A stretch of 45,405 bases of DNA. It comes from Micrococcales bacterium. Its GTDB lineage: Bacteria; Actinomycetota; Actinomycetes; Actinomycetales; WQXJ01. Where the stretch lies: contig WQXJ01000016.1 in assembly GCA_009784895.1 (NCBI GenBank), forward strand, positions 1 through 45,405, given 5' to 3'. Position numbers and translations under genes: made by a program. Shown one piece after another: positions 12,739 through 17,303 of the stretch. The notes below the pieces were generated by a model. That model searched no databases. It was given only the letters and a program-made list of their open reading frames with translations, and was not told the origin of the DNA. Numbering within the stretch: position 1 is the first letter of the stretch; each line of letters opens with the position of its first letter.

Positions 12739-13362
12739 GTGCGCAATCGGTCCAGAGTGCTTGAACTCGCCGTTCTGGGCTTGCTCCACGCCGCGCCGAT
12801 GCACGGATACGAACTGCGCAAGCGCCTAAACGAAATGCTTGGCCTGCTGCGGCCCTTCTCATACGGCTCGCTCTACCCCTGCTTGAGGGAACTGGCGGAC
12901 AAAGGTGCGATTACGGCATCGGGCGACCTGGACCAAGCCCCAACCGCCTCAAGGCGGGGACGGATCGTCTACCAACTGACCACGGCTGGGGCCGAACTTC
13001 TGGAGCATTTGCTGGGTGAAGCCGGACCGGCTAGCTGGGAAGACGAGAACTTCGACGTTCGTTTCGCCTTATTCGCCCAGACCGATGTCGACACTCGGGT
13101 CAGAATCCTTGAGGGCCGGCGCATCCGCATGGCGGAGAGACTCGATTCCCTCTTCACCGCCATCAACCGCGGCCAACCGGCCGATGCCTACACCGCCGAA
13201 CTGCAACGCCACTCGCTCGACCAACTTGAGCGTGAGGTTCGTTGGCTGGAAGGCTTGATCGATGCCGAACGCGCTGGTAGGCGGGTCGGCAGGTCTCTCA
13301 CTCCGGTCCACGCCCCGATCAGAGGGGCCCACCTATCACAATCTATTAAGGAGACAACATGA
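12739..13362 (+). CDS. PadR family transcriptional regulator
   Basis: A 207-residue regulator with the PadR winged helix at the N-terminus: [23 protein letters not shown], then [18 protein letters not shown] with the LYPxL recognition-helix signature. A C-terminal helical region (about 115-180) matches the dimerisation domain of the longer PadR subgroup. GTG start with AAAGGAGC upstream. The last codons overlap the ino1 ATG, so regulator and enzyme are translated from one message. The palindrome at 12671-12693 makes autoregulation, and hence control of inositol synthesis, the simplest model. Confidence 0.92.
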
Positions 13363-14438
13363 GCCCGATCCGCGTCGCCATTGCCGGCGTTGGGAACTGC
13401 GCCGCCTCGCTGGTGCAGGGCGTTCATTTCTATCGAGACGCCAAGCCAAATAGCTCGGTGCCGGGATTGATGCACGTCCAATTTGGGCCCTACCACATTA
13501 GCGACATCAACTTCGTCACCGCCTTCGACGTTGATGCGGCCAAAGTTGGCCTGGACTTAGCTGATGCCATTGTTGCCTCAGAGAACAACACCATCGAGAT
13601 TTGTCAGGTGCCAGCCACAGGCATAACGGTCCAGCGCGGGCCCTCCCTGGATGGATTGGGCAAGTACTACAGCGAAACCATCACTGAGTCGAGCGCCGAA
13701 CCGGTTGATGTGGTGGCGGAACTGCGGGACAAAAAAGTCGACGTGTTGGTCTCCTACTTGCCGGTAGGTTCTGAAAAAGCCGACAAGTTCTACGCCCAGT
13801 GCGCCATTGATGCCGGGGTCGCTTTTGTCAACGCCCTGCCGGTGTTTATTGCCTCGGATCCTGCCTGGTCGAAGAAATTCCAGGACGCCGGTGTGCCGAT
13901 AGTGGGTGACGACATCAAATCTCAGGTTGGCGCCACTATCACCCATCGCGTCCTGGCCAGGCTGTTCGAAGACCGGGGCGTCATCATGGACCGGACCTAT
14001 CAGCTGAACGTGGGCGGCAATATGGACTTCAAGAACATGTTGGAGCGAGAGCGCCTTGAGTCAAAGAAGATCTCCAAGACCCGGGCCGTGACATCGAATA
14101 TTGACCACACTTTGGCTGAGCGCGACATCCACATAGGGCCATCGGACTATGTCGCCTGGCTCGATGATCGCAAATGGGCCTTTGTCCGTCTGGAAGGTCG
14201 GGCCTTCGGTGAAGTGCCGTTGAACCTGGAGTACAAGCTTGAGGTTTGGGATTCGCCCAACTCGGCCGGGATCATCATTGACGCCGTGCGCGCCGCCATG
14301 ATCGCCAAGGATCGCGGCATTGGCGGCGCCATTACCTCGCCATCGACCTACTTTTTCAAGTCCCCACCAGTTCAGCACGAAGATCGTCAAGGCCGGGCCA
14401 TGGTCGAGTCGTTCATCAAAGGCGAACTGGAACGCTAG
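13359..14438 (+). CDS. ino1: Inositol-3-phosphate synthase
   Basis: Converts glucose 6-phosphate to 1L-myo-inositol 1-phosphate with NAD, the source of phosphatidylinositol and mycothiol in actinobacteria. The 359-residue protein is the short actinobacterial/archaeal type. The NAD loop is [14 protein letters not shown] (8-21). The conserved core includes [20 protein letters not shown], the [20 protein letters not shown] region and [20 protein letters not shown] with its catalytic lysines. ATG at 13359 preceded by AAGGAGAC and overlapping padR. Fits with the PimB-like enzyme that uses the downstream lipid. Confidence 0.95.
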
Positions 14439-14542: not shown

Positions 14543-14555
14543 TAGCCTCGTTCAC
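14543..14555 (+). promoter_or_regulatory. Probable -10 box for leaderless HsdR-like mRNA
   Basis: TAGCCT at 14543-14548 is seven bases before the ATG, as in the other leaderless candidates. It suggests the altered HsdR-like gene still has its own promoter. Confidence 0.4.
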
Positions 14556-15857
14556 ATGGCTGGGGCTACAAAGACCAAACCCGCGCTCGCAACCGGGCCT
14601 GAAGCAAATCCGACCACGGCTGGACCCGGCGCCCGGAACGGCTCGCGGCGCGGCGCCATCGAACAGGCTTTGTCCCAGGCCGGTTGGGACGGGTCCAGAG
14701 TCACACGCAACTACGAGCTGACCGCAGCGCCGGCCCGCCAAGGTCCCGGGCGGGGCCACCACGGCGCGCAACATCACGTTGTCGCCTACGTACTTCAAGC
14801 CGTGCCGGGTACACCGACGGCCATAGTGGCTTCAGTTGGTGCCAACCACAACCCGGAGACAGCTCTGCGCCGAGCCATTCGCCAAGGCCAAAGGCTTGAT
14901 GTGCCGCTGGTCTACGTCACCAATGGCAAAGACATCGTTGAGCATTCGACTCGCACAAACCGGCACCGGGCCGTTGCCGCTTTCGCAACGCCAAAACGGG
15001 CCTGGGCTACCTACCTGAAAGACCGCCAACTGGACCGGTCACAAGGCGACTGGCTGGCTCAGCCCTTTGACCCCGAACTCTTCAACGGTCCTGATGACCA
15101 GCTGCGCTACTACCAGATTGTCGCCATCAACCGGGTCATGGCGGCAATCGCCAAAGACCATGCCCGCGCTCTGCTGGTGATGGATCCTGGGGCCGGACGC
15201 ACCACAGTGGCCCTCCAAGTCGCCGCCAAGGCCCGGGCGGCTCGGGCGGCCGCAGGCAGCTTGGAACCCCTGCGTGTGCTTTACCTGGTCGACCGGGCCA
15301 TAGCCGTGGCCTCGGACTTATCTGACCAGTTTGCCCCAGCCTTTGGGCCGGTCGACCTGAGCTGGCCAGCCGGGCCGGCCAATCCGGTCTTATTCGCCAC
15401 CGCGCGGGAGCTAGCCAGCTTTGACGAATCTCCAAGTCGCTATCCAAGTAGCCATTTCGACCTGGTGGTGGTCGACGAAGCCAGGACTTCCTCCTTCGAC
15501 CGGCCTGGCCTGGGCCGGCTGTTGCAGTACTTCAACCGAGCCTTTCATTTGGGCATGACCTGCGCCTCCCGCGCCGAGGCGGCTGAGACCTACGCCTACT
15601 ACGGCAATCCCTTGTACCTCTACACCGCCGCACAGGCCAAACAGGACGACTTCTCCCAATGGCCAGTTCTTGACCAGCACTCGGCTAAACCGAACGCTCC
15701 TGCCACCATTGCTTCAACGCCGCGACGGCGGCCGCTTCACCCAGGGGGCCCTGGTTCATTCGCAGCTCCAGCAGAAACCTATAGGCCTGGCCCACCACCG
15801 GGCCCGGCTCGAGCCCCAGCAGTGCCATTATCTGCTCGCCATCCAAGTCGGGTCTAA
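14556..15857 (+). CDS. Truncated HsdR-like protein with altered nuclease and helicase motifs
   Basis: Residues about 33-155 resemble the N-terminal nuclease region of type I restriction R subunits, and about 183-372 their first helicase (RecA-like) domain, including VPLVYVTNGKDIVEH and the LYLYTAAQAKQDDFSQW stretch at the domain end. Every catalytic motif I can find is changed. The nuclease ADYVL is VAYVL (Asp to Ala77) and the E-x-K pair is AIVASVG (Glu to Ala92, Lys to Val94). Walker A is PGAGRTT (Lys to Arg215) and DEAH is DEAR (307-310). The second helicase domain and C-terminal region are missing: homology stops near nt 15672, almost exactly at the pcnA stop. The last roughly 58 residues are antisense to pcnA and unlikely to be native. 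No hsdM or hsdS is nearby. Either a pseudogene with an intact frame or a repurposed binding protein. Confidence 0.7.
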   Translation: MAGATKTKPALATGPEANPTTAGPGARNGSRRGAIEQALSQAGWDGSRVTRNYELTAAPARQGPGRGHHGAQHHVVAYVLQAVPGTPTAIVASVGANHNPETALRRAIRQGQRLDVPLVYVTNGKDIVEHSTRTNRHRAVAAFATPKRAWATYLKDRQLDRSQGDWLAQPFDPELFNGPDDQLRYYQIVAINRVMAAIAKDHARALLVMDPGAGRTTVALQVAAKARAARAAAGSLEPLRVLYLVDRAIAVASDLSDQFAPAFGPVDLSWPAGPANPVLFATARELASFDESPSRYPSSHFDLVVVDEARTSSFDRPGLGRLLQYFNRAFHLGMTCASRAEAAETYAYYGNPLYLYTAAQAKQDDFSQWPVLDQHSAKPNAPATIASTPRRRPLHPGGPGSFAAPAETYRPGPPPGPARAPAVPLSARHPSRV

Positions 15858-17163
15858 TCGCGGCCAACTCTTCTTTCTGCTTCAGCTCTTCGATCCGAGC
15901 CTCAAGGTCGTCGTAGGCAAAAGCCAGGACCTCGGCCCGGCGGCGGTTCTGCGAGGTGCAATCCGCCCGCGTCAGCCGGTGCAAGCGTTCGAGCAGATCG
16001 CCGGCATCAACGACATAGCGACGCACGGCCGAATCGGTCCATCCGGCTTGGCCATAACCGTGAAACCGGAGGTGCAACTCGATCAACCGAGCCACCGCCT
16101 TGACCGTGGCGCTATCAAAGCGCAAGGCTTTCAGTCGTTTGGCCGCAAGTTTTGCCCCTACCACTTCGTGGTGATGGAAACTGACGGCCCCGCCGGCCTC
16201 AAAACGTCGAGTCGCCGGTTTGCCAATGTCATGGAGCAGCGCCGCCAGGCGTAGGACCAGGTCTGGCCCTGGTACCGGACCGTCAGGCCCAGTCTCCATT
16301 TCGATCGCCTGCTCCAGCACCCTGAGCGAATGCTCGTAAACATCCTTATGCCGGTGCAACGGGTCGACCTGAAGCTTCAAGGCCGGCAGTTCAGGTAGGA
16401 CTGAATCAGCCAGTCCGGTAAACACCAGTAACTCAAGTCCGTGCCGCGGCGTTTCGGTCAAAAGCAGCTTGACCAGCTCGCCTTGAATTCGCTCCGGCGA
16501 CACGATCGCCAGCCTTTCGGCCATAGACGTCATGGCGCCAATGACGTCTTGGCAGACCTCAAAGCCTAGTTGGCTGGTAAAGCGGGCCGCCCGCAGCATC
16601 CGCAAGGGGTCGTCATCGAACGATTGGGCCGCACTTACCGGCGTGCACAGCCGCCGCGCCGCCAGGTCAGCCAGGCCATCGAACGGGTCAACAAAGCTGA
16701 TCGAGCCGGCCTGTCCTAGGGCCACGGCCATGGCGTTGACGGTGAAATCACGCCGCGACAAATCCCCGGGCAGGTCTTTGCCAAAGTCAACCGCCGGTTT
16801 GCGGCTATGGCTTTGGTAATTGTCTGAGCGGTAGGTAGTGACCTCGACCACCTCGGCGCCACGCCGGGCCCCGACCGTGCCGTATTCTTTGCCAATCTCC
16901 CAATGCGTATTGGCCCAAGTGCCCAGCACCGCCACTGACTGATCAGGGTTAGCCGAAGTCGCAAAATCCAGATCTGCTATGTCCCGGCCCAACATCAGAT
17001 CCCGCACCGGGCCACCGACCAAGGCCAATTCGTGGCCCGCTGCCGCAAAGGCCTGACCCAGCGAAAGCGCGGCCGCCGGCAGTCGCTCCAGCGCCCGCTC
17101 GATCAATTCGCCACGGGCGGCGGACTGGTTATTGGCCAAAGGGCCTTTGCCATCATTTCCCAC
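15685..17163 (-). CDS. pcnA: CCA tRNA nucleotidyltransferase with HD domain
   Basis: Adds or repairs the 3' CCA of tRNAs, which matters here because neither tRNA in the window encodes CCA. The 492-residue protein has the nucleotidyltransferase motif LVGGPVRDLMLGRDIADLDFAT with the catalytic DLDF. RRDFTVNAMAV and the RMLRAARFTSQLGF neck follow. The C-terminal HD phosphohydrolase domain shows HKDVYEHSLRVLE and LLHDIGKPATR. I place the start at GTG 17163 because a TAGGCT box lies eight bases upstream; an in-frame GTG at 17223 would add 20 non-conserved residues. It diverges from the NUDIX gene and converges with the HsdR-like frame, overlapping it by 173 bp. Confidence 0.93.
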   Translation of the reverse strand: MGNDGKGPLANNQSAARGELIERALERLPAAALSLGQAFAAAGHELALVGGPVRDLMLGRDIADLDFATSANPDQSVAVLGTWANTHWEIGKEYGTVGARRGAEVVEVTTYRSDNYQSHSRKPAVDFGKDLPGDLSRRDFTVNAMAVALGQAGSISFVDPFDGLADLAARRLCTPVSAAQSFDDDPLRMLRAARFTSQLGFEVCQDVIGAMTSMAERLAIVSPERIQGELVKLLLTETPRHGLELLVFTGLADSVLPELPALKLQVDPLHRHKDVYEHSLRVLEQAIEMETGPDGPVPGPDLVLRLAALLHDIGKPATRRFEAGGAVSFHHHEVVGAKLAAKRLKALRFDSATVKAVARLIELHLRFHGYGQAGWTDSAVRRYVVDAGDLLERLHRLTRADCTSQNRRRAEVLAFAYDDLEARIEELKQKEELAAIRPDLDGEQIMALLGLEPGPVVGQAYRFLLELRMNQGPLGEAAAVAALKQWWQERSV

Positions 17164-17171
17164 GATGCTCC

Positions 17172-17177
17172 AGCCTA
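17172..17177 (-). promoter_or_regulatory. Probable -10 box for leaderless pcnA mRNA
   Basis: On the minus strand TAGGCT is followed by eight bases and GTG at 17163. It decides the start codon chosen for pcnA and mirrors the box in front of the divergent NUDIX gene. Confidence 0.5.
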
Positions 17178-17303
17178 ACGGCGCTAATCGCGACGGGCGC
17201 GGCACCAAAGACGCATCACCCACTTTGACCGGGTCGGCGCCAGGCGCCGGCTCGTGCCGACACCGTAACTATGCCCAGTTGTTGGGGATATTCTCCAGTG
17301 CCC

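Follow-up and report, generated by a model that had tools for sequence, protein, structure and literature searches.

Gene X, a probable domesticated fragment of a type I restriction R subunit that has lost its catalytic motifs, in one family of Actinobacteria

The gene here called X lies on contig WQXJ01000016.1 of a Micrococcales bacterium (assembly GCA_009784895.1), the 45,405 nucleotides of which were analysed as one stretch, referred to below as the window. It encodes a homologue of HsdR, the R subunit of type I restriction systems, in which the nuclease and ATPase motifs are all altered. The X family is very probably a selected pseudoenzyme. This reading, offered in the original prediction for the window copy, is supported by the motif losses and new invariant residues shared between species, by purifying selection in genus g3, and by a TA-box before the start codon in 10 out of 10 related upstream regions. 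X is probably a domesticated, catalytically dead piece of an EcoAI/IB-like HsdR that selection has maintained in a single actinobacterial family. Judging from their isolate codes, we take these bacteria to come from the termite gut.

Homology and motifs of X

The similarity of X to the EcoAI/FtnUII HsdR family covers residues 34–366 (NF046051, E 3e-55, 188 bits), although the 187.9 bits do not reach the equivalog cut-off of 550 bits. PDB entry 3h1t matches residues 36–366 (E 8e-36) and Pfam family ResIII matches residues 182–335 (E 5e-15). Residues ~27–366 are homologous to the N-terminal half of an EcoAI-family HsdR. Homology stops at residue 366, leaving X without the second RecA domain and without the C-terminal region that contacts the methylase. 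Alignment with canonical HsdRs bears out the losses first read from the window alone, those of the nuclease Asp, the Glu-x-Lys, the Walker A Lys and the DEAH box, and adds to them the QxxxY motif and motif III, where TAT has become TCA. The sequence argues against catalysis by X, which has kept none of the D, E and K residues, has lost the Walker lysine and has no second RecA domain.

No stop codon or frameshift is found in the 372 codons of the homologous part, so the claim that about 370 codons are open holds. The rest of the 433-codon frame is an antisense read through cca. GC by codon position is 0.75/0.75/0.46 in this tail, against 0.69/0.51/0.71 in the homologous part and 0.68/0.47/0.70 in padR. 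The tail is without a coding signature and the homologous part keeps the coding GC pattern. In the orthologues, the position of the tail is occupied by a linker and a C-terminal helical domain.

Orthologues and shared losses

The family search matched 10 of 18 genomes, nine of which, including that of the window, have a true orthologue, while the tenth (G002) has a distant relative. The orthologues come from eight other species of the same family and seven are demonstrably beside ino1. A further partial copy in G006, at a contig end, is likewise beside ino1. The nine X proteins form one clade (branch support 100/99) apart from all canonical HsdRs, with the G002 protein joining the canonical side.

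In all nine proteins E-x-K has become A-x-V and QxxxY has become RxxxQ. The catalytic Asp is replaced by Ala, or by Ser in G011. The Walker A Lys is lost from every copy, with R, T or A in its place and the loop partly deleted in G009, and in place of the DExH box genus g3 has NLxH and the window copy has DEAR. None of the nine retains the second motor (RecA) domain. There are 11 informative X-specific invariants that are rare in nine canonical relatives (R27, R31, H68, H69, A92, V94, H98, P100, R106, Q110, and R148), and the positions once held by E, K, Q and Y are among them. The net charge of the pseudo-nuclease domain (residues 27–160) is +8 to +13 in the nine X proteins, against −9 to +6 in 15 canonical HsdRs. 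The search of related genomes, which had been proposed as a check on the window copy, returned orthologues that have the same replacements and share new invariant residues forming a coherent set, not intact full-length HsdRs.

Canonical relatives found elsewhere have open frames of 795–861 codons and intact motifs. A pattern scan of 84,980 species genomes with the sequence P0001 alone gave no match. The scan with the alignment recovered the family members and, elsewhere, HsdRs, of which those with whole frames have intact motifs. X was not found outside the family in samples of 149 genomes of the order and 198 of the class, the new class-level matches, the motifs of which were not read, having frames of 824–837 codons, and the viral contigs searched contained no relative of X. 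In addition to X, G008 has a second EcoAI-type HsdR gene with intact motifs and a frame that ends after 368 codons (L051, 9610–8504, minus strand). This copy is probably a true young pseudogene, in contrast to X.

Predicted structure

Structure prediction of both domains had been proposed as a check, and AlphaFold models of the window protein and of the G008 orthologue keep the HsdR folds. In the window protein the pLDDT is >90 over most of the two domains and low in the tail. This model matches 3h1t best, with a Z of 30.2 across 304 residues, the next match being at 16.1, and a Foldseek E of 1e-20 supports the HsdR fold. In the G008 model there are also two long helices at the C-terminus (452–485 and 491–534). 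This C-terminal helical domain has no match to a Pfam family. It is present in seven orthologues, in G011 in another frame, and no convincing detached copy of it was found elsewhere in the window or G012 genomes, the best hit in the window genome having an E of 0.39.

Selection and the state of the window copy

For the clade, selection is firm. Pairs of genus g3 sequences have dN/dS values of 0.20–0.48 by the NG86 method. A codon model written for this analysis (12 sequences, 328 columns, separate omegas) gave an omega of 0.08 for g3, and fixing omega at 1 costs a 2 delta lnL of ~1035; in these fits branch lengths reached their bounds (saturation), most runs stopped at the iteration cap and composition was treated as constant. 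Only one genome is available for the window's own genus, so there is no within-genus dN/dS and no sister strain. For the window copy selection is probable, an omega of 1 on the window branch being rejected with a 2 delta lnL of 85, or 67 with tighter branch bounds. The dN/dS check suggested at the outset thus finds purifying selection in g3, and on the window branch rejects neutrality only with saturated synonymous sites.

Several observations weigh against selection having kept X, and against a working window copy in particular. The window and g3 differ in base composition and have reached saturation at synonymous sites, which makes the omega of the window branch rough. A model-free test of residue retention on this branch, comparing 34 of 43 with 34 of 51 ancestral residues retained, gave no significant difference (p 0.25). 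The C-terminal helical domain is missing from the window copy and the entire gene is missing from G007, a g3 species, and X is therefore dispensable. The copies in G011 and G012 may also be frameshifted or truncated.

The family could work while the window copy died recently, through a deletion that took away the C-terminal domain and joined the frame to the antisense of cca. The seven orthologues that have the domain, the lack of a convincing copy elsewhere in the window genome and the gene loss in G007 are all consistent with this. A stop is created by 2.35% of random substitutions and, when 379 substitutions were simulated, the frame remained open in only 0.2% of runs, which favours selection, but the absence of stops bounds neutral drift only to ~126 substitutions (0.11 per site). 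Recent death is nevertheless unlikely. G012 likewise lacks the C-terminal domain, the homologous part of the window copy keeps its coding signature, its TA-box and all of the X-specific invariants, and the branch of the window protein (0.77) does not exceed in length the path leading to its g3 orthologues. It is likely, judging from these sequence features, that the window's own copy of X still works.

Relation to restriction systems

It had been claimed that no HsdM or HsdS lies near X. No HsdM was found on the window contig (HsdS was given no separate search), while an intact restriction-modification locus of the EcoR124 type is present on another contig of the same genome, C10 (L103, 2723–9659, minus strand). 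This locus encodes an HsdR of 1081 aa, an HsdS of 397 aa and an HsdM of 529 aa. Among the nine X genomes searched, strong HsdM matches were found only in those of the window, G005 and G008, and G010, which is 92% complete and has X, gave no HsdM match. A partnership of X with restriction is unlikely because the locus in the window's genome is of the EcoR124 type and on another contig, and because of the negative result in G010.

X could instead be a restriction decoy or a dominant-negative partner, competing for the methylase or absorbing phage anti-restriction proteins. An EcoR124I HsdR with a dead nuclease shows trans-dominance over wild-type HsdR in vivo (PMC2602864) and the window's genome does have an intact type I locus, yet the HsdR at that locus is from another subfamily. 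This role is improbable because most of the X genomes have no strong HsdM match and because X is without the C-terminal half of HsdR, as it is without the second RecA domain.

Neutral decay of X as an ordinary type I restriction pseudogene would account for the loss of all catalytic motifs, the antisense tail, the missing C-terminal half and the lack of HsdM or HsdS beside X. It is very unlikely, and for the clade it is refuted: nine species from two genera, between which synonymous sites are saturated, have fixed the same losses, and the new invariant residues, the purifying selection, the recurring TA-box and the absence of stops all oppose it. The young pseudogene that the original prediction set against a pseudoenzyme fails for the clade in the same way, there being orthologues with the same losses in eight other species. 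An artefact of metagenome assembly is scarcely credible, since the X-bearing genomes, which are indeed assemblies in many contigs, are independent and have the same gene at the same place, some on contigs of 42–81 kb.

Promoter and neighbourhood

The TAGCCT box is indeed exactly seven bases before the ATG of X, as first read. A TAG[AC][TC]T box 5–15 nt upstream is found at 2 of the 1138 ATGs in the window. The TA-box of the 10 related upstream regions, which include that of G002, is ~7 nt before the start codon and is of the TAG type in nine and TAAGTT in G013. Leaderless genes in Actinobacteria are marked by TAnnnT ~12 bp upstream (PMC3160421). X, having a TAnnnT box before its start codon, is a candidate for such a gene.

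The features of the locus are listed in Table 1. The gene order padR-ino1-X is found in the window and in G004, G008, G009, G010, G011, and G013. In G005 ino1 and X are on separate contigs, and in G012 X, with cca on one side and ino1 on the other, is encoded on the opposite strand. This G012 copy (L048, 1863–3065, plus strand) is thus in inverted orientation to ino1; at its 3' end it runs into a low-complexity linker that is rich in GC, and the frame may be shifted there. X adjoins cca in the window, G004, G009, and G012. X stays linked to ino1 rather than to cca, because cca is on other contigs in G008, G010, and G013.

A MauE/DoxX-like gene is located 3' of X on the same strand in G008, G010, G011, and G013, and is followed by a DsbA-like gene in G008 and G010. 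The neighbourhood of X in genus g3 has a redox character, with ino1 upstream and DsbA downstream (L042, 8662–5979, minus strand; L046, 5637–7086, plus strand). In species without X, the interval between ino1 and cca contains a repeat-rich lipoprotein-like ORF in G007 (L052, 8477–6897, minus strand) and an MFS transporter in G017 (L053, 6625–5231, minus strand).

Table 1. Positions in the window of X, its domains and motifs, and the adjoining genes.
Feature	Position	Strand	Remarks
padR-family regulator	12739..13362	+	Neighbour kept with ino1 and X
ino1, inositol-3-phosphate synthase	13359..14438	+	Neighbour kept with X
TAGCCT −10-like box, predicted leaderless-type promoter	14543..14548	+	7 nt before the ATG of X
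X, pseudo-HsdR gene	14556..15857	+	433 codons, ATG start
Dead PD-(D/E)xK nuclease domain, residues 27–160	14634..15035	+	Net charge +10
H68-H69-G70	14757..14765	+	Invariant in 9/9 orthologues, absent from canonical HsdR
Ala77	14784..14786	+	Replaces the catalytic Asp (alignment)
A92-S93-V94	14829..14837	+	Replaces Glu-x-Lys; A92 and V94 invariant in the clade
R106...Q110	14871..14885	+	Replaces QxxxY; invariant in the clade
Dead RecA1-like motor domain, residues 161–366	15036..15653	+	
Degenerate Walker A, P-G-A-G-R-T-T	15186..15206	+	Lys lost (G212-A-G-R215-T vs G-x-G-K-T)
D307-E-A-R310	15474..15485	+	Replaces D-E-C/A-H; NLxH in genus g3 orthologues
Last ~60 codons of X	15672..15854	+	Without homology, mostly antisense to the cca 3' end, predicted disordered
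cca, CCA tRNA nucleotidyltransferase	15685..17223	-	Convergent with X, overlaps the tail of X

Proposed role of X

X descends from HsdR, has lost the catalytic residues of both domains and belongs to a family that evolves under purifying selection. The positive charge and histidines gained where the active site used to be suggest nucleic-acid or metal binding. Having exchanged its acidic metal-binding residues for Arg and His, the nuclease site may have become a basic site that binds nucleic acid, or metal, and does not cut. The authors of PMC2602864 note that affinity for DNA can increase when acidic residues close to it are removed and the charge there is reduced. The dead RecA1 domain may act as a static scaffold, and the C-terminal two-helix hairpin of most orthologues may add oligomerisation or contact with a partner. 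X could then be a structural or regulatory DNA-binding protein with its own leaderless promoter, working outside restriction.

DNA binding as the job of X is put forward with some doubt. Slightly better placed, and still tentative, is the wider proposal that X represents an undescribed family in which an R subunit turned into a non-cutting, ATP-independent DNA/RNA binder, its nuclease site rebuilt with basic and His residues and its role lying outside defence. If X does bind DNA without cutting, a defence enzyme would have been turned into a housekeeping or regulatory protein.

Comparison with known systems

The HsdRs of the EcoAI/FtnUII family (NF046051, with 3h1t as the solved fragment) have the same fold and the same order of nuclease and RecA1 domains as X, at roughly 25–36% identity. 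X differs from them in being without the nuclease and ATPase residues, RecA2 and an adjacent HsdM, and in having a basic nuclease domain with the new invariant HHG, H98, R106, and Q110. In EcoR124I HsdR, D151A and K167A abolish cleavage (PMC2602864). The EcoR124I mutant K220R was considered as a parallel to the Walker A change in X and was dropped, as K220 is not the Walker lysine and the ATPase of the mutant is normal (PMC4454674).

In the sister genus g2, the G002 genome contains a solo gene of HsdR type (L050, 3677–471, minus strand) 3.4 kb downstream of ino1. It shares with X the wider family, a similar start-codon TA-box and the proximity to ino1, and its nuclease residues are replaced (D by P and ExK by DLA). 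Unlike X, it has intact ATPase motifs (ATGSGKT and DECH) and a second RecA domain. The frame runs stop-free into an MFS transporter (1068 codons), a possible fusion. The state of this gene suggests that nuclease loss can come first, although on the tree the protein sits with the canonical HsdRs. With its nuclease dead and its motor intact, this relative indicates that partial disablement, too, can be a lasting state.

Searches of the literature for dead or orphan HsdRs found no described family like X, nor a dead restriction subunit kept across a lineage. The retention of orphan methylases without their restriction partners is well documented (reviewed in PMC12707154). The fungal Dis3-family pseudonucleases (PMC8097288) and Utp25 (PMC9539457) are reported to be likewise enzyme folds kept after the loss of catalysis, with nucleic-acid or assembly roles. 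They are unrelated proteins from unrelated organisms, and X differs in having lost a nuclease and a motor in one chain.
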